DNA of 32,851 nt. It comes from an uncultured Bacilli bacterium. Its GTDB lineage: Bacteria; Bacillota_I; Bacilli_A; RF39; UBA660. The stretch covers positions 1 through 32,851 of the forward strand of contig CALVKJ010000008.1 in NCBI GenBank assembly GCA_944332675.1, given 5' to 3'. Position numbers and translations under genes: made by a program. The notes beneath the pieces were generated by a model. That model saw nothing but the letters and a program-made list of their open reading frames with translations. It was not told the origin of the DNA and ran no database searches. This document shows, piece after piece, positions 3,181-32,539 of the stretch; positions within the stretch are counted from its first letter, which is position 1, and every line of letters starts with the position of its first letter.

Positions 3181-3385
3181 AAATAAAAATCATAAACTAA
3201 GGACGAGTTTTAACCCGCGGTACCACCTTAATTCATGATTTACATGCTCTTCATTTGATAACGGCTAAGACCGAGTTTTTGCTCCAAAAATCATACTCAA
3301 TACCACCACTTATTCTTTTTCACCCAACAAGAATTCTCTAAAAAGCAGTAAATATTTACCCTTTCCTTCATCGCTAAACTAGCCT
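3181..3385 (-). promoter_or_regulatory. T-box riboswitch, methionine specificity
   Basis: The minus-strand leader contains the T-box signature AAGGTGGTACCGCGG (3229-3215) and a Stem I start with GCGATGAAGG. The specifier loop aligns with the glyQS leader: GAGT-ATG-ATTTTTGGAGCAA here against GAAA-GGC-ATTCTTGAGCAA, giving an AUG (Met) specifier at 3294-3292. A 12-bp helix, CATGAATTAAGG (3237-3226) with CCTTAGTTTATG (3202-3191), encloses the T-box and is followed by T-rich sequence, forming the terminator. Uncharged tRNA-Met should favour the antiterminator and expression of dut-metG-tatD. A possible promoter (TTGAAA 3415-3410, TAAACT 3392-3387) overlaps the end of spoVT and is weak. Confidence 0.93.
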
Positions 3386-13244: not shown

Positions 13245-13264
13245 AATAAACCTCCAAATAAAAA

Positions 13265-13335
13265 GTGCACACAAATAGAGGCTGATGTGGCTGCTATCTT
13301 CCGATTCTGACCAGGTTACAGCATAATTGTTGCAC
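13265..13335 (-). ncRNA. ffs: Signal recognition particle RNA (4.5S, minimal form)
   Basis: The minus strand carries the conserved SRP domain IV loop: CTGTAACCTGGTCAG, then CGGAAGATAGCAGCC (consensus GGTCAGG-CCGGAAGG-AGCAGCC). The ends pair, GTGCAACA with TGTGTGCAC, giving one hairpin of about 71 nt followed by TTTTT (13264-13261 and beyond). There is no Alu domain. B. subtilis scRNA is about 270 nt with Alu, so this is the short form. It sits between its promoter and tadA, as in B. subtilis. Confidence 0.93.
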
Positions 13336-13341
13336 GAATAA

Positions 13342-13395: not shown

Positions 13396-13411
13396 TATTT
13401 CCCGGGAAATA
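13396..13411. promoter_or_regulatory. Noc-binding-site-like palindrome 1
   Basis: A perfect copy of TATTTCCCGGGAAATA, which contains the B. subtilis Noc site ATTTCCCGGGAAAT. Noc is a ParB paralogue that blocks division over the nucleoid. It is not coding here. Confidence 0.85.
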
Positions 13412-13564: not shown

Positions 13565-13580
13565 TATTTCCCGGGAAATA
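13565..13580. promoter_or_regulatory. Noc-binding-site-like palindrome 2
   Basis: A second perfect TATTTCCCGGGAAATA, 169 bp from the first, in the same non-coding region. Confidence 0.85.
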
Positions 13581-13713: not shown

Positions 13714-13729
13714 TGTTTCACGTGAAACA
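13714..13729. promoter_or_regulatory. parS site 1
   Basis: Perfect TGTTTCACGTGAAACA, the ParB/Spo0J centromere palindrome. Confidence 0.93.
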
Positions 13730-13813
13730 TTTTTCAAAAAAATTAAGATAAACAATTAACATTTATTTTAGCAATTATGTGTTTCTTCCTATAAACATTT
13801 TATTAACATCCAA

Positions 13814-13829
13814 TGTTTCACGTGGAACA
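13814..13829. promoter_or_regulatory. parS site 2 (GGAACA variant)
   Basis: TGTTTCACGTGGAACA, the same one-base variant as the common B. subtilis parS (TGTTCCACGTGAAACA) read on the other strand. TTATTAACA lies at 13800-13808, 5 bp away. Confidence 0.92.
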
Positions 13830-13885
13830 TTAAAATGTACTTTAACTAGAAAAATATAAATTAATCACCAGTTGTCAACAGATGA

Positions 13886-13901
13886 TGTTTCACGTGAAAC
13901 A
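13886..13901. promoter_or_regulatory. parS site 3
   Basis: Perfect TGTTTCACGTGAAACA, within a longer palindrome (13883-13904). TTGTCAACA lies at 13872-13880, 5 bp away. Confidence 0.93.
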
Positions 13902-13988
13902 TCACTCGAACAAATACCATAAATATAAAATGATCAAAATAAAAAAATTATAAATTAATTTCTATTAATAATAACATTTTATCAACAA

Positions 13989-14004
13989 TGTTTCACGTGA
14001 AACA
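13989..14004. promoter_or_regulatory. parS site 4
   Basis: Perfect TGTTTCACGTGAAACA. TTATCAACA lies at 13979-13987, 1 bp away. It begins the first copy of an ~85-bp duplicated segment. Confidence 0.93.
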
Positions 14005-14159
14005 TAAATCAATTTTGAAAATTTTAGCTATATTTGAAAAAAATTATAAATATTGCACCAAATTATCAAAATTTATTTTATGTTTAAATAAAAAATATTT
14101 CACAGAATATAAAACTTTTTACCTGTTGATAAGAAAATTAAAAACAACTTATCAACATA

Positions 14160-14175
14160 TGTTTCACGTGAAACA
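14160..14175. promoter_or_regulatory. parS site 5
   Basis: Perfect TGTTTCACGTGAAACA inside a 26-bp perfect palindrome (14155-14180). TTATCAACA lies at 14149-14157, 2 bp from the parS core. Confidence 0.93.
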
Positions 14176-14287
14176 TATGTCTTAAAAAAAGATAAAAATA
14201 AACAACACAAAATATTAATTCAAATAAAAATATTTTTGTTTAACAATTTGTGCATTTGATTTTTGCAAACAAATTATTAACATCTTA

Positions 14288-14303
14288 TGTTTCACGTGAA
14301 ACA
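14288..14303. promoter_or_regulatory. parS site 6
   Basis: Perfect TGTTTCACGTGAAACA. TTATTAACA lies at 14274-14282, 5 bp away. It begins the second copy of the ~85-bp duplicated segment. Confidence 0.93.
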
Positions 14304-14377
14304 TAGATTAATTTTTAAAATATTTAGCTATATTTGAAAAATTTTATAAATAATTAAGCAAATTATTAAAATTGCAT

Positions 14378-14406
14378 AAAAAAGAATGTTTCACGTGAAA
14401 CATTCT
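14378..14406 (-). terminator. gyrA terminator formed by parS site 7
   Basis: Read leftward from gyrA, the transcript can fold AGAATGTTTC/GAAACATTCT (10 bp, loop ACGT), followed at once by six U residues (14383-14378). No other terminator-like structure is evident immediately after gyrA. Confidence 0.7.
14387..14402. promoter_or_regulatory. parS site 7
   Basis: Perfect TGTTTCACGTGAAACA, 9 bp from the gyrA stop codon, embedded in a 24-bp perfect palindrome (14383-14406) that also has terminator form. Confidence 0.93.
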
Positions 14407-14410
14407 AACA

Positions 14411-16882
14411 CTATTCTTGTATATTTGTATCTATTTGATCAGAATCCAATTCTATAGAACTATCTTCTTCAACAACTTTATCAACTAAACTAATCGTCGA
14501 CACTTTTTGATTATCTCTTAAATGAATCAATCTTAAGCCTTGAGTAACTCGACCTAAAACAGATATTTGATCAATTGGCATTCGCATTGTCATACCAGAA
14601 TCAGTCATAATTACAAGTTCCTTATCAGGTTTTACAATTTCCACAGCAACCAAGTTACCATTCTTTTCAGTAATATTAAGAGCTTTAACTCCTTTACTGC
14701 CTCTCTTAGTTTGTCTAAATTCACGAACATATGTTTGTTTACCATAACCCTTTTCTGTAACCAGTAAAATTAGATCTTCTTCATTGACAATTTCACAACA
14801 AATACACAAGCTATCTTCTAAATTAATTCCTCTTACACCACTAGCAGTTCTACCCATAACACGAATTTCTTCTTCATTAAATTTAACCATTCTTCCAGCA
14901 CTGCTACCAAGTAATACTAGATTTTCACCAGTTGTCTTTTTAACATCAATTAATTCATCGTCATCACGTAATGTTATACAAATCTTACCACTATTACGTA
15001 TATTTTCAAATTCACTGACTAAAGTTTTCTTAACAATACCCTTTTTAGTAGCAAATAACAAATATTTACACTCATCTTCACTATTAATGTTGATAACTGT
15101 ATTAACCTTTTCTTCTTTATCGATTTGTAATAAATTAACTATCGGTAATCCTTTAGATTGTCTACTATATTCAGGTATTTCATAACCTTTCAATCTATAA
15201 ACTTTACCTTTATTTGTAAAGAATAATACATAATCATGAGTTGATAAGTTAATCATATGTTCAACAAAATCTTCATCATTCGTCGACATTCCTTTAATAC
15301 CAACTCCTCCACGATTTTGTGATTTAAAGGTATCCGCAGTAGTCCTCTTGATATAACCATTATGTGTAAGAACAACCAAAATATTTTCTTCTGGTATCAA
15401 AGATTCATCTTCGATAAAATCAACTGCAGTCATATCGATTTTAGTTTTTCTTTCATCGCCATATTTGTCTTTAATTTCTAGCAGTTCCTCTTTAATAATA
15501 GCTAATACCTTATTATTATCCGCTAAAATGCCACGTAAACGATCAATTTCAATGTGCAATGCATTTAACTCTTCTTCAATTTTTTCGCGTTCTAAACCTG
15601 TCAAACGACGTAATTTTAATTCTAAAATGTTATCAGTTTGAATTTCAGTAAAGCCAAATCTTGACATCAATTTTTCTTTTGCTTCAGCATCTGCCTTTGA
15701 TTCTTTAATAATCTTAATAACTTCATCTATATTATCTAAAGCAATCTTATATCCTTCTAAGATATGTACACGTTTTTCAGCTTTATCAAGTTCAAATTGT
15801 GTTCTTCTAATAATAACTTCTTTTTGAAAATCAATATACTTCGAGATAATACTCTTTAAACCTAAAGTTATAGGAGTTCTATTATCTAGCATAAGTAAGT
15901 TAATACCAAAAGTTGTTTGTAATTGAGTATGTTTATATAAATTATTTAAAACAACACTACCGTTTGCTTCTTTCTTAAGAGTTATTACTATTTTTATACC
16001 ATTTTCTAAGTTAGTTTCTTCGTGATAATCAGCAATTCCTTCAAGAACTTTATCTCTAACCAATTCACCAATTCTTTTCTTTAACTCTAAAGTATTTATT
16101 CCATAAGGAATTTCTGTAATAACAATACGATGTTTATTTCCTTCTTCTTCAATTTCTGCTTTCGCTCTGATAGTAATTGTTCCTTTACCAGTTTCATAAG
16201 CCTTTCTTATACCAGAATTTCCTAAGATAATAGCTCCAGTTGGAAAATCTGGCCCCTTAACATATTGCATCAATCCATCAGTATCTATATCAGGATTATC
16301 AATATAAGCAACACATCCATCGATCACTTCACCTAAATTATGTGGTGGAATATTTGTTGCCATCCCTACAGCAATACCCATTGTTCCATTTACTAAAATA
16401 TTAGGAAATCTACTAGGTAAAACTTCAGGTTCCATTTCCGTTTCATCAAAGTTTGGTTCAAAATTAATCGTATTTTTGTTAATATCTCTTAAAAGTTCTA
16501 AAGAAATTTTAGAAAGCCGTGATTCAGTATAACGCATTGCTGCAGCACCATCGCCATCCATATTACCAAAATTTCCATGACCATCAACTAAAACATAACG
16601 ATAGCTAAAATCTTGTGCCATTCTTACCAATGCATCATAAATTGAACTATCTCCATGAGGGTGATATTTTCCCATTACATCCCCAACAACTCTTGCACAT
16701 TTACGATATTGCTTATCAGGAGTATAACCAGATTCAAACATTGAATATAATATTCTTCTATGCACTGGTTTTAATCCATCTCGTAAATCAGGGATTGCCC
16801 GGGATACAATAACACTCATCGAATAGTCCAAAAATGACTTTTCAATTTCATCAACTATATTATTTTGTTTAACTCTATCCAT
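14411..16882 (-). CDS. gyrA: DNA gyrase subunit A
   Basis: A type II topoisomerase subunit that cuts and reseals DNA for negative supercoiling. The catalytic Tyr is in [10 protein letters not shown] (about residue 118), and the winged-helix region holds [17 protein letters not shown]. Its Ser and Asp match E. coli Ser83 and Asp87, the quinolone-sensitive state. The C-terminal pinwheel has the GyrA-box ([10 protein letters not shown]), so this is gyrase rather than topoisomerase IV. I chose the second of two adjacent ATGs (16882, 823 aa), 5 nt after GGGAGG; the first, at 16885, leaves only 2 nt. It is 10 nt downstream of gyrB. Confidence 0.97.
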
Positions 16883-16892
16883 CATAACCTCC

Positions 16893-20082: not shown

Positions 20083-20520
20083 TTAACCCCTATTCATATA
20101 AATTATTAACATTCTACTACACTTAAGTATTTGATTATTTAATATTGCATAAGATATCATAAATTTTTTTATTTCACCATCATTAAATGTAATACTAACA
20201 AACTCTCCATCTTTCTCATAACTTTTAATCATTCCAAAATTAAACCAAATAACTTCACCATTTTTCTTTCCACTCAAAGGAAAAAATAAAATGTTATTCT
20301 TTTCACTAATTATAATAGGTATTTTATATCTACTATTGATCAATTTTCTAGCCCCAATTATTCTTCCCTGTAAAGAACTACCATAATATTCGCAACTATT
20401 TTCTAAAATATTTTTTAAATTATTCCCTGGAATTATTAGTTCTGTTGATAATTCATTAATAATTGTTTTGTTATCATCATACATTAAATAATAAGTATTT
20501 TTATTGATAATATAATCCAT
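20083..20520 (-). CDS. ComK-like competence transcription factor
   Basis: A 145-aa protein with clear motif-by-motif similarity to B. subtilis ComK. CEYYGSSLQGR (43-53) corresponds to CRFFGSSYAGR. P68-I and FFP (79-81) match PIMV and LFP, Trp92 matches GWISH, ITFNDG (110-115) matches VTFSNG, and MISYAILNNQ (121-130) matches PISYNSFENQ. ComK is the master activator of DNA-uptake genes, binding AAAA-N5-TTTT boxes. This version lacks the C-terminal ~40 residues of B. subtilis ComK, the part involved in MecA/ClpC control there. GAGGTGG precedes the ATG. It lies alone between a dnaN terminator and the recF promoter, with its own extended -10 (TGC-TAGAAT, 20550-20542). Confidence 0.8.
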   Translation of the reverse strand: MDYIINKNTYYLMYDDNKTIINELSTELIIPGNNLKNILENSCEYYGSSLQGRIIGARKLINSRYKIPIIISEKNNILFFPLSGKKNGEVIWFNFGMIKSYEKDGEFVSITFNDGEIKKFMISYAILNNQILKCSRMLIIYMNRG

Positions 20521-23205: not shown

Positions 23206-23548
23206 AACCTCACCCCACTAACAACATTTCACTGATTACATTTTAAACCATTTTTTTAAAAATGAAAAGAGGAAAGTTATCAAAAATTTTTATCCCCAAA
23301 ACTATCAACAAAAAAAGTTCGACAAAATCTGACATAAATCGACTTATCCATATTATCAACAAATTCAAATAAACAATATCAACATACCAACAAACTATCA
23401 ACAGCCAAGTTAATAACATGTTGTTAATTGTGTTGATTATTTTTAATAGTTATCCACATTTTATCAACAATCCACAATTTATGTGGATAAGTTGTGTCTT
23501 TCTTGCAAATTTTTTTATTATCCCTTAAAATTTAGTAGGGGAATAATT
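23206..23548. other. oriC: Origin of replication: DnaA-box cluster upstream of dnaA
   Basis: Two perfect TTATCCACA boxes, 23450-23458 (+) and 23482-23490 (-), lie with many near-matches: TTATCAACA at 23353-23361 and 23461-23469, TTATCCATA 23344-23352, TTATCCCCA 23290-23298, CTATCAACA 23302-23310 and 23395-23403, and ATATCAACA 23376-23384. Most face the same way. Genes diverge here (dnaA left, WYL regulator right). With the dnaA-dnaN spacer this gives the bipartite oriC typical of Bacilli. Confidence 0.9.
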
Positions 23549-26888: not shown

Positions 26889-26910
26889 GGAGCAATAGCT
26901 TCTTTTTTTT
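26889..26910 (+). terminator. Terminator after jag
   Basis: GGAGC (26889-26893) pairs with GCTTC (26898-26902), one G-U pair, loop AATA, followed by eight T residues. Confidence 0.8.
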
Positions 26911-26920
26911 GAATTACATC

Positions 26921-26966
26921 TTGACAAATACACCGTATTTTTGTATAATTACGGTGTATTTGTCAA
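26921..26966 (+). promoter_or_regulatory. AbiE operon promoter embedded in a 17-bp perfect inverted repeat
   Basis: TTGACAAATACACCGTA (26921-26937) and TACGGTGTATTTGTCAA (26950-26966) are exact reverse complements separated by 12 bp. The left arm contains the -35 (TTGACA, 26921-26926) and the spacer ends with the -10 (TATAAT, 26944-26949), 17 bp apart. AbiEi antitoxins are known to repress their own promoter by binding inverted repeats, so this is the likely operator. Confidence 0.9.
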
Positions 26967-26980
26967 AGAAGGGGTTATTT

Positions 26981-27607
26981 ATGGACTTAAAAAAAATTAA
27001 CAAATTTCAAACCGAAAATAATATAGAAATAATTGAAAATCTTATTAAAATAAATGGTGGATACATAACTTCTAAAATCTTGACTGATTTGGGAATTCAT
27101 AGAATGTATTTAAAAATAATGCTAGATAAACACATGATAGAGAAAGTTAATAGGGGAATTTATATTTCTAAGGAAACAATTGAAGATTCTTTTTTTACAT
27201 TTCAATTAAGATATCCTAAAGTAATTTTTTCTAGATTTACTGCTTTATATTTTTATGGATTAACTGAAATAATTCCATATAATTTTGATTTAACAATGGA
27301 TAATAATTATCATGTAGATAAAATAAATAAAAATCATAATATAATTAGATGTAAAAAGGAATTTCTAAATTTAGGTTTAACTGAAGTAAAAACACCATAT
27401 GGCCATAAAGTTAAAACTTATGATCGGGAAAGATGTATATGTGACATTATAAAATATAAAAATAAATTAGACTTAGAACAAGTAAAAAAATCAGTAAAAA
27501 TGTATCTAAAAGATAAAAATAAAGATTTAATAAAACTATCTGAATATTCTAACATTATGGGAATAAACAAAGAAGTAATGGAATTTGTGGGGATGTACAA
27601 TGAATAG
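26981..27607 (+). CDS. abiEi: AbiEi-family antitoxin (type IV toxin-antitoxin)
   Basis: 208 aa. An N-terminal winged helix (ENLIKINGGYITSKIL... MLDKHMIEKVNRGIYI) is followed by the AbiEi core with FSRFTALYFYGLTEIIP and the KTYDRERCICDII segment, as in AbiEi_4-type antitoxins. Members repress the operon and neutralise the AbiEii nucleotidyltransferase without binding it. The ATG at 26981 follows AAGGGG by 6 nt; an upstream in-frame start at 26909 would precede the promoter. Its stop overlaps the abiEii start by 8 nt. It is first in an island that splits jag from mnmE. Confidence 0.88.
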   Translation: MDLKKINKFQTENNIEIIENLIKINGGYITSKILTDLGIHRMYLKIMLDKHMIEKVNRGIYISKETIEDSFFTFQLRYPKVIFSRFTALYFYGLTEIIPYNFDLTMDNNYHVDKINKNHNIIRCKKEFLNLGLTEVKTPYGHKVKTYDRERCICDIIKYKNKLDLEQVKKSVKMYLKDKNKDLIKLSEYSNIMGINKEVMEFVGMYNE

Positions 27608-28427
27608 TATGCAAATAAAAAATAAATTGAAAAATATCGCTAAAGAAAAAAATATTGAATTTAACATTCTATTAAAATTTTATGCTTTTGATAGATTTAT
27701 TTTAAGACTTTCAAAAAGTAAGTATGCAGATAATTTTATAATTAAGGGCGGATTCTTATTAAGTAAATTTTTTGGCTTAGAAAATAGAAGTACAATGGAT
27801 ATTGATTCTGCACTAAATAATTTTGATTTAACAAAAGAAAATACTATAAAAATAATTACTGAAATTATAAATATTGATTTAAATGATAATGTAATATTTG
27901 AATTTAATGATATTACTAATATAAGAGAAGAAGATGAATATGGTGGCTTTAGAGTTCATTTAACATTTAAACTTGATAATATAAAAGAGTTACTAAAATT
28001 TGATATAGCTACTGGTGATCCGATTACTCCTAGTGCAGTAACAGTTAATTATAATTCATTATTAGATGAGGAAAAAATTAAAATTTGGGCTTATAATATT
28101 GAAACAATTATATCGGAAAAATTAGAATCAATATTTAGTAAATTAGAAACTAGTAGCAGAATGAAAGATTATTATGACCTATATTTAATTTATACATTAT
28201 ATTGGAATAAAATAAATAAAAACAATTTACTAAATGCTATTAAAAATACTTTTAATTATCGTAATTTTAATATAGATTTTGTAAAAGGATTAGCAGTAAT
28301 TAAAAATAGTTTAATTTTAAAAACAAGATGGAAGTCGTACTCTAGAAAGCATAATTATGCTAAAGATATTACTTTTGAAGACACTACAAAATCCATTAAT
28401 GATATTATAAATGACTTGTTACTATAG
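27600..28427 (+). CDS. abiEii: AbiEii-family nucleotidyltransferase toxin
   Basis: 275 aa with all four motifs of the family: KGG (49-51) with DID (67-69), D135-IATGD, EKLES (173-177) and SRMKDYYDLY (186-195). The fold is a DNA-polymerase-beta-like nucleotidyltransferase; characterised relatives bind GTP or modify tRNA, halting growth during phage infection. The ATG at 27600 sits in ATGA-type overlap with abiEi and follows GGGG; the TTG at 27585 is less likely. Nothing appears disrupted, so the module should be functional. Confidence 0.9.
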   Translation: MNSMQIKNKLKNIAKEKNIEFNILLKFYAFDRFILRLSKSKYADNFIIKGGFLLSKFFGLENRSTMDIDSALNNFDLTKENTIKIITEIINIDLNDNVIFEFNDITNIREEDEYGGFRVHLTFKLDNIKELLKFDIATGDPITPSAVTVNYNSLLDEEKIKIWAYNIETIISEKLESIFSKLETSSRMKDYYDLYLIYTLYWNKINKNNLLNAIKNTFNYRNFNIDFVKGLAVIKNSLILKTRWKSYSRKHNYAKDITFEDTTKSINDIINDLLL

Positions 28428-29972: not shown

Positions 29973-31145
29973 ATGAGTGTAATTAAATCATTAAAAAAAT
30001 CTAATGTTATTTTAATAGCAATAATATTAATTTTATTAGTAATTATAGCAATGTTACTTATAAATAATAATATTGATAATGTAGTTAAAAGTAATGAGAG
30101 TAATTTTAAAGAGAATATTGTTAATTCTAATGCATTAACCATGATGTATGAAACAGAAGCGGGGAGTGGAGAATATCAAGTATCAAGTGATACAACCTGG
30201 CCACAGGAAGGATATATATTTAATGAAATATTGTCTAGTTGTGAAAATGGCAGTACTTTAGTTTGGGATGATGAAAATAAAAAAGTAGTGATGCAAGCTA
30301 ATACTAGTGATAAATGTTATGTTTATTTTGATAAGGAACCTGATGTTGTTTATTTAGCAGACTATGTAATCAGTCAATATACAAACGATGGCGATAATGG
30401 GCTTTATTATCATGATGGAATGGGAAGTTATACAAATGCAGATCAAGAAGCGGGAGATAATTCATATAGATATGCAGGAGCTAATCCAAATAATTATGTC
30501 TGTTTTGGGTCAGATGAAGAAAGTTGCCCAGCAGATAACCTATATAGAATTATAGGGTTATTTAATTATTCTAGAGAATATCGAGTAAAATTGATAAAAG
30601 CCACAATTTACGGAAGTTATTTATGGGATGACAATGCAAAAACATGGAATGAAACAACAAAACCGAATATATATACAACATTAAACGAAACATATTATAA
30701 TACATTAGAAAATGAATGGCAAAATCTAATAGCAGAAACAACATGGCAAGTTGGAGGAATGGATCGAAATGATTCCTACACAGCAAAACAATATTATAAT
30801 GTAGAAGTGGGGAGTGGCCAAACAGGGTATGAAGAAACAATGAAAATAGGATTAATGTACGTAAGTGATTATGGTTACGCAGCAGCGCCGAGTAATTGGA
30901 CAACGGAGTTATATAATTATTCAGCAACAAATGCAAATTGGGCATATTTGGGCGCTACTGAATGGTCTATTTCCCGCTGTTGGCAGAATGACTATGGTGT
31001 GTTCCTTGTGGGTAGCAATGTAAGCTCTAGCATAGACATCAACATGGGACGTAGTCGTAACACTCGTCCAACATTCTACCTAAATTCAGATGTTCAATAC
31101 ATCTCCGGCACAGGAACCCAATCTGACCCTTTTAGAATTGCCTAA
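29973..31145 (+). CDS. Membrane-anchored surface protein of a gut-Bacilli type, mosaic 3' end
   Basis: 390 aa. A basic N-terminus and one hydrophobic segment (residues 12-30) suggest an uncleaved anchor, with the rest outside the cell. Residues 58-122 form a small domain with Cys90 and Cys115; residues 165-390 form a larger domain starting YRYAGANPNNYVCFGS, with Cys177/Cys185, several Trp and Gly, and ending TRPTFYLNSDV and GTQSDPFRIA. The C-terminal pattern (W-S-x-SR...RP-x-FYLNS) recalls C-type-lectin-like or sulfatase-modifying folds used as variable ligand-binding domains. The last 60 codons are far GC-richer than the rest. Ligand unknown. A GGTGAT lies upstream of the ATG. Confidence 0.75.
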   Translation: MSVIKSLKKSNVILIAIILILLVIIAMLLINNNIDNVVKSNESNFKENIVNSNALTMMYETEAGSGEYQVSSDTTWPQEGYIFNEILSSCENGSTLVWDDENKKVVMQANTSDKCYVYFDKEPDVVYLADYVISQYTNDGDNGLYYHDGMGSYTNADQEAGDNSYRYAGANPNNYVCFGSDEESCPADNLYRIIGLFNYSREYRVKLIKATIYGSYLWDDNAKTWNETTKPNIYTTLNETYYNTLENEWQNLIAETTWQVGGMDRNDSYTAKQYYNVEVGSGQTGYEETMKIGLMYVSDYGYAAAPSNWTTELYNYSATNANWAYLGATEWSISRCWQNDYGVFLVGSNVSSSIDINMGRSRNTRPTFYLNSDVQYISGTGTQSDPFRIA

Positions 31146-31186: not shown

Positions 31187-32539
31187 ATGGAAGATACAAT
31201 TTGTGCAATATCAACATCGATTGGTATCGGTGCTATTTCGATAGTTCGTGTTAGTGGACCTGATGCCATAAAAATAGTAGATAGCATATTTGATGGTAAC
31301 TTAACAGATAAAGAAACTCATACAATTCATTATGGCCATATTAAATATAATAATGAAGTAATTGATGAGGTTTTAGTAATGCTAATGCGTGGACCTAAGA
31401 CTTATACAACTGAAGATACTGTTGAAATTAATTGCCATGGTGGTAAATCTACTACGGAAAAAGTATTAGAAATATTACTATCTTGTGGATGTAGATTAGC
31501 AGAACCTGGTGAATTTACCAAAAGAGCCTTTCTAAATGGTCGTATTAATCTTTTAGAAGCGGAATCCGTTAATGATTTAATTGTTGCAAAAACTGATGCT
31601 GCCAGAACTTTAGCTATTAATAATGTTGATGGAATTTTAACTAAAAAAATCAGAAATATCCGTGAAAAAATAGTAAAAATACTTGCAAATATTGAAGTAA
31701 ATATTGATTATCCAGAATATCAAGATGAAGTACAGGTAACTCACAATTTAATGAATGAATACTTAACAGATATAACTAAAGAATTAAAAAGTTTAGTTGA
31801 TGGTGCCAAAAATGGTCGCATTATTAAAGAAGGAATAAATATTGCGATAATTGGAAGACCTAATGTCGGAAAAAGTAGTATTTTAAATCATTTGCTTGAT
31901 GAAGAAAAAGCAATTGTTACTGATATTCCTGGCACAACACGCGACATTGTTGAAGGATCAATTACTCTAAATGGGGTTGCTATAAACTTTATTGATACCG
32001 CTGGAATTAGAGAAACAGATGATGTTGTTGAAAAAATTGGGGTGGATCGTAGTAAACGTTCTGCAGATTCGGCAGATATTGTATTATTCGTTGCAAATAA
32101 TAATGAAAAATTGACCGAAGAAGACCTGGAATTACTGGAAAAATATGATTCTGAAAATTTAATATTTTTTGTAAATAAATCAGATTTAGAACAAAAAATA
32201 GAAATTCCGGGAAATATTTCCCGGGAAATAATTTTGGGAAATACGGTCGATGTAAATGGACTAGAATCTTTAAAAAATGCTATCAAAAACAAACTAAATT
32301 TAGATAGTATTGTTAATAAAGATATGAGTTATTTATCAAATATTCGCCAAATAGACTTAGTAAATAAGGCAAATTCGACAATTGAAAATGCTTACAATGC
32401 CCTAAAAAATGATATGCCAATCGATATGATTGAGATAGATTTAAAGTCTGCTTGGGAATACTTAGGAGAAATAATCGGCGACTCTTATCAAGATGAACTA
32501 GTTGATAATATATTTAGTAACTTTTGTTTAGGAAAGTAG
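31187..32539 (+). CDS. mnmE: tRNA modification GTPase MnmE
   Basis: 450 aa. With MnmG it makes the cmnm5 modification at U34 of several tRNAs. The N-terminal THF-binding domain is followed by a G domain: G1 [10 protein letters not shown]2 region [10 protein letters not shown]3 [17 protein letters not shown]4 NKSD. The C-terminal FCLGK supplies the conserved CxGK cysteine. I chose the ATG at 31187; the TTG at 31166 lacks a ribosome-binding site. A Noc-type palindrome lies within the coding sequence (32215-32230). mnmG follows 8 nt later. Confidence 0.96.
32215..32230. promoter_or_regulatory. Noc-binding-site-like palindrome 3, inside mnmE
   Basis: A perfect TATTTCCCGGGAAATA within mnmE, encoding part of NISREI. 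Immediately before it (32203-32215) is a one-base-shorter copy, AATTCCGGGAAAT. Confidence 0.8.

Follow-up and report, generated by a model that had tools for sequence, protein, structure and literature searches.

Seven clustered parS sites beside Noc-binding sites in an uncultured Bacilli bacterium: a putative compact centromere next to the replication origin

Why should seven parS sites be packed into 689 bp next to a replication origin, and which proteins would make use of them? This question is raised by a stretch of 32,851 nucleotides of an uncultured Bacilli bacterium of the gut (hereafter the window), for which the original prediction had named six exact copies of the parS 16-mer and one single-base variant at 13714–14402 as a compact centromere. 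All seven sites were found again exactly there (Table 1). The claimed distance of 9 kb to oriC held as well, as DnaA boxes and a switch in GC skew are located at ~23.2–23.5 kb. Overlooked until now were, however, the Noc-binding sites (NBS) in the same intergenic region, which is thus more than a ParB centromere. All genome-wide site counts given below cover a draft assembly of 1,045,358 bases in 69 contigs with a completeness of 67.8%, which was searched for parS with up to two mismatches and for NBS with up to one.

The cluster occupies an intergenic region bordered by gyrA (3′ end at 14411) and by the gene for the small SRP RNA, behind which tadA, dnaX and recR follow. On the other side of the region lie gyrB, recF, dnaN and dnaA, and the 5′ end of dnaA is 8.8 kb away from the 3′ end of gyrA. 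Neighboring parS sites are 72–171 bp apart. Based on composition, about 0.0003 exact sites would be expected in the assembly, and dinucleotide shuffles of the window gave 0.17 matches even at up to three mismatches, with none of 100 shuffles reaching seven. The chance that seven uniformly placed sites fall within 689 bp is about 10^-18. A scan for clusters of similar density elsewhere returned no further parS in the whole draft at up to two mismatches, although the DNA missing from the assembly may hold additional sites; the total hence stays at seven, of which all but one match parS exactly.

Table 1. Position of parS sites, Noc-binding sites, DnaA-box-like 9-mers and landmark genes in the window.
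Feature	Position	Strand	Remark
Small SRP RNA gene (bacterial)	13259..13339	-	RF00169, 53.4 bits; far border of the intergenic region
NBS 1	13397..13410	.	exact ATTTCCCGGGAAAT; same intergenic region as parS
NBS 2	13566..13579	.	exact; same intergenic region as parS
parS 1	13714..13729	.	exact TGTTTCACGTGAAACA
DnaA-box-like TTATTAACA	13800..13808	+	5 bp before parS 2
parS 2	13814..13829	.	one mismatch, TGTTTCACGTGGAACA
DnaA-box-like TTGTCAACA	13872..13880	+	5 bp before parS 3
parS 3	13886..13901	.	exact
DnaA-box-like TTATCAACA	13979..13987	+	1 bp before parS 4
parS 4	13989..14004	.	exact
DnaA-box-like TTATCAACA	14149..14157	+	2 bp before parS 5
parS 5	14160..14175	.	exact
DnaA-box-like TTATTAACA	14274..14282	+	5 bp before parS 6
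parS 6	14288..14303	.	exact
parS 7	14387..14402	.	exact; gyrA stop 9 bp away
gyrA	14411..16885	-	parS cluster directly 3′, likewise in relatives
dnaA	21856..23205	-	
Probable oriC	23290..23490	.	DnaA boxes clustered upstream of dnaA, where the GC skew switches
NBS 3	32216..32229	.	exact; inside mnmE, across oriC from parS

The genome encodes the proteins that such a cluster would call for. Soj (261 aa) and Spo0J (292 aa) form a canonical adjacent pair on contig C4, so that a ParB homolog is present; the N-terminus of Spo0J carries an intact ParA-activating motif (ALGKGLEQLF), and its closest solved structure in a phmmer search is Spo0J of B. subtilis. SMC was found on contig C5 (925 bits together with its frame neighbors). 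The features of a chromosomal ParABS system, i.e., the parS palindrome, a soj-spo0J pair, proximity to oriC and SMC, are consequently all present. The suggestion that soj and spo0J might follow mnmG-rsmG has to be revised, as this pair is encoded on a different contig and the gene directly after mnmG-rsmG (contig C19) encodes a second ParB_N protein at the position typical of noc.

A gyrA-based search gave 80 named loci, mostly from drafts of uncultured Bacilli of animal guts, of which 67 could be assigned to the lineage. Among the 42 of these reaching at least 2.7 kb beyond gyrA, 40 feature three or more parS sites just 3′ of this gene. In total, 304 parS sites fall into the 126 kb of DNA following gyrA and only 3 into the other 1,034 kb of the same loci, and the gene order around the cluster is identical throughout the relatives. 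In 12 well-assembled genera of the family, each genome has its exact parS cores gathered in a single cluster. As many contigs of relatives stop inside the array, its true size may exceed the number of sites counted. Traorella, the sole cultured relative found, has two parS sites at a distance of 2.5 kb. Given that the draft holds no other parS, encodes Soj-Spo0J and SMC, and shares the place of the cluster with its relatives, these seven sites are best read as a compact centromere, which is well supported as far as sequence comparison reaches; ParB would bind and SMC would be loaded here.

ParB and Noc are a textbook example of a duplicated protein pair, the copies of which have different sites and different jobs. 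In the window, the two NBS next to the cluster form a block of their own, 135–317 bp away from parS 1, and do not alternate with the parS sites. The third one is located within mnmE, so that the NBS bracket oriC from the gyrA side and the mnmE side. A fourth NBS was not found in the draft at up to one mismatch, and all three lie within 20 kb around oriC. In described species, by contrast, NBS are distributed across most of the chromosome (PMC7383237), e.g., over 41 loci and ~1.4 Mb in Staphylococcus aureus (PMC5540599); such a widespread distribution, as characteristic of nucleoid occlusion, was not seen in this draft. The relatives give a similar picture: in the loci compared, 88 NBS were counted inside the DNA following gyrA and 28 outside, and in the 12 well-assembled genera 17 of 18 NBS cores are on the contig of the parS cluster or on that of noc. 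Most relatives have 2–5 NBS per genome among the matches listed, and 13 of 48 classified loci are devoid of NBS within 2.8 kb of gyrA. Congener positions, taken from the loci and a dozen chosen genomes, revealed that the codon position of the mnmE site is kept in five to six congeners, four of which also keep ISREI, spelled with TCC and CGG as rare codons; in L149 a residue is changed to Gln, yet the site still lies within one mismatch.

What kind of protein could read these sites? Of the 117 genera of the family that were sampled, 116 have a match to the C19 protein, and nearly all encode two ParB_N proteins. Based on synteny, its closest relatives (the closest solved structures in phmmer are those of Noc) and its DNA-reading residues, it belongs to the Noc clade. 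The specificity code for NBS consists of Q173, K179 or K184, and R201 in Caulobacter ParB numbering (PMC7383237), with Q136, K142 and R164 of the C19 protein corresponding to Q173, K179 and R201. In a comparison of 30 genera (linkers of L103–L132), Q136 and R164 never vary and K142 is kept in at least 90%; the CTP-site motifs GERR and ENxQR are retained as well. B. subtilis Noc requires an N-terminal amphipathic helix for membrane targeting (PMC4331003; PMC8429893). All 30 genera lack this helix; their ParB_N domain starts after ~8–15 residues, none of which resemble it. Moreover, the C19 protein scores 273 bits and is thereby below the 315-bit cut-off of the NCBIfam model nucleoid_noc (TIGR04285). 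Considering its score, the missing helix and the narrow spread of NBS, we did not class it as a nucleoid-occlusion factor.

A further peculiarity is the linker of ~70–300 residues behind the DNA-binding domain. A motif [KR]FF[NST], typically NKFFNFLEDE..ANM, occurs in 17 of 30 linkers (0.14 expected by shuffling), and PNIxxIKxNAxDIN represents a second conserved motif. AlphaFold predicts a confident ParB fold for the C19 protein and a disordered linker except for a short helix at 288–294. The likeness to the RFF of Noc suggested that FFNFLE could be a relocated membrane helix; this is no more than a guess, as no helix is predicted at 336–341 (pLDDT ~50). The hydrophobic moment of the FFNFLE region is moderate (0.36–0.54) and not always the maximum of the linker.

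While the genus of the window has an NBS block beside a parS block, other branches alternate parS and NBS, partly at fixed spacing. In L088, eight of eight parS-NBS pairs show a center distance of 44–46 bp; they are scattered over 2 kb and separated by DNA that is unrelated from one gap to the next. L062 has five of five pairs at 27–28 bp, and L066, L083 and L055 each have three of three at a single spacing. When NBS were placed at random inside the span of the parS sites, the regularity seen in L088, L062, L066, L083 and L055 was reached in 0, 0, 3, 3 and 7 of 5000 trials, respectively. Fixed spacing within one locus can result from duplication of a composite unit, but the pairs are kept where the surrounding DNA is not conserved. 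One NBS-parS distance for the whole family was rejected, as lineages differ (27–28, 35, 39, 45–46 and ~59 bp). The same applies to a single origin of interleaving, since a GyrA tree, albeit a quick one with an unsure root and Traorella on a long branch, demands at least four changes of state over well-supported branches.

Taken together, we consider it reasonably probable that the intergenic region between gyrA and the SRP RNA gene acts as a compact centromere and that the Noc-like protein serves as a second, origin-confined centromere protein. Spo0J would load as CTP clamps at the seven parS sites and thereby form a dense partition complex at a distance of 9 kb to oriC; Soj would act on this complex, and SMC would be loaded from it at essentially a single point. 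The Noc-clade protein, in turn, could load at the NBS in the cluster and in mnmE and hence onto the same origin domain. Devoid of the N-terminal helix and equipped with a long linker frequently carrying the FFNFLE-type motif, it would no longer mainly mediate chromosome-wide nucleoid occlusion in this lineage; its linker might rather join the ParB complex to another partner, e.g., a membrane, division or replication protein. From sequence comparison we infer that ParB and Noc bind, that they load as clamps, that SMC is loaded here and that Noc has this role. A more far-reaching version, for which the case is tentative and slightly weaker than even, is that Noc was recruited to the ParB centromere, with the helix lost, the sites confined to the origin and dyads of fixed spacing providing for two CTP clamps in several branches.

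An alternative option could be an ordinary ParABS centromere, in which local duplication multiplied the parS sites, their density is of minor importance and the few NBS are the shrinking remnant of nucleoid occlusion in a reduced genome of ~1.1 Mb. In fact, repeat-unit duplication is visible in the parS region of the window, the number of parS sites varies from 2 to 11 between relatives and amounts to just 2–3 in sibling families (both among the matches listed), and a single parS near the origin is enough in Pseudomonas aeruginosa (PMC4368675). A mere remnant is, however, difficult to reconcile with exact NBS palindromes near parS and a site in mnmE held at a fixed position with rare codons, with relatives multiplying NBS up to eight together with parS at fixed spacing, or with DNA-reading residues of Noc that hardly vary, if at all, among 30 genera. 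Likewise, the place of the array is conserved although the spacers diverge. We regard this explanation as rather unlikely.

Also unlikely, and slightly more so, is a role of the Noc-like protein mainly in the timing of replication initiation, uniting Noc, Soj/ParB and DnaA. Noc of S. aureus does control initiation, but its NBS nonetheless span ~1.4 Mb (PMC5540599). In the window, NBS flank dnaA on both sides; among the relatives, NBS near dnaA are rare and were found in L045 (-317 bp) and L071 (-326 bp) only. A link to DnaA could further be seen in the 9-mers listed in Table 1: a DnaA-like box (TTATYAACA or TTGTCAACA) lies no more than 8 bp away from five of the seven parS sites, with strand and side being constant, and this pairing recurs in most congeners. 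Among the relatives' loci, it is absent beyond the genus of the window and its nearest relatives, which argues for a local elaboration.

The enrichment of DnaA-like 9-mers in the window and in the parS region (six versus 0.2 expected there) could also mean that the region belongs to the replication origin or serves to titrate DnaA, with parS as passenger of a DnaA-box repeat. This is very improbable: L031, L032, L041, L045 and L062 have parS clusters without DnaA-like boxes, and a conventional box cluster with skew switch is located upstream of dnaA. An origin or titration role of the array was thus rejected, the boxes being absent in relatives that retain the parS array. An assembly artefact or foreign insertion, as might be suspected from a fragmented draft and from the 19 of 67 family loci whose contig stops no more than 600 bp away from gyrA, is practically negligible, because over 40 loci of independent projects share the place, the genes and the sites, including the near-identical genome L101 with slightly different site spacings.

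Compared to known systems, the compact centromere proposed here combines familiar parts in an unusual manner. With B. subtilis ParABS it shares the identical parS 16-mer, the Soj-Spo0J pair, SMC and origin-proximal sites, which in B. subtilis are scattered over the origin domain, whereas here all known sites lie in 0.7 kb 3′ of gyrA and adjoin NBS. The contrast drawn by the original prediction is valid insofar as such scattering is noted for Bacilli; clustering itself is common elsewhere. Most bacteria have their parS within 5–40 kb, and scattering is peculiar to few lineages including Bacilli (PMC8357415). Several parS sites near oriC acting as one centromere are also found in other phyla, e.g., in P. 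aeruginosa (parS1-4), C. glutamicum and Caulobacter. Clustered parS is therefore a known kind of centromere, but the density is unusual, being about an order of magnitude higher than in the clusters of other phyla, occurring within the class Bacilli and in combination with NBS. With Noc of B. subtilis and S. aureus, the Noc-like protein shares the NBS palindrome, the gene position after mnmG-rsmG, the ParB_N and HTH_ParB domains, the Q/K/R residues and the GERR and ENxQR motifs. It differs by having few, origin-near NBS instead of dozens across the chromosome, by the lack of the N-terminal amphipathic helix, by the long linker with conserved motifs and by a score below the NCBIfam cut-off. While clustered parS alone is known, the confinement of NBS to the parS region and origin domain together with an altered Noc is new.

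Tight clustering results in effectively one SMC loading point, which is thought to prevent collisions of separately loaded complexes (PMC8357415), and the lineage bears on the question whether parS density is chosen for this purpose. With both site types in one putative compact centromere and a Noc devoid of its membrane helix, it could offer a natural experiment on the purpose of Noc, and on whether the clamps of ParB and Noc help or hinder each other on shared DNA. As parS and NBS are short and orthogonal, dyad arrays could be rebuilt in B. subtilis.

Plasmid centromeres feature tandem arrays of partition sites. A similar architecture was observed in L053, L057 and L060, where exact tandem arrays of parS-like sites with a unit of 26–28 bp start just 3′ of gyrA and run to the contig end, and L058 has a parS-like tandem array at the same place with a unit of about 30 bp, also reaching the contig end. 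Probably, short-read assemblies break on long identical arrays in these four loci. Different from plasmid arrays, the system described here is chromosomal, uses canonical parS and has two site types for two paralogous proteins. A 71-bp tandem array in L068 (12406-12829) contains four NBS and no recognizable parS up to the contig end.

Apart from the centromere region, the window offers several minor observations. The 9-mer TTATCAACA occurs in 20 copies (0.9 expected), mainly at 13.2–23.5 kb; many copies are intragenic and codon usage is a possible cause. Upstream of mnmE, an open reading frame of 390 aa (29973-31145, +) is without Pfam or NCBIfam match. Between jag and mnmE (26909-28427, +), we found an AbiEii-type nucleotidyltransferase toxin gene (27585-28427) with an unassigned upstream gene of 232 aa, which probably encodes the antitoxin. 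A ComK-family competence regulator is encoded between dnaN and recF (20083-20520, -; PF06338, E 6.8e-25), and a T-box leader is located at 3196-3380 on the minus strand (RF00230, 102.6 bits).
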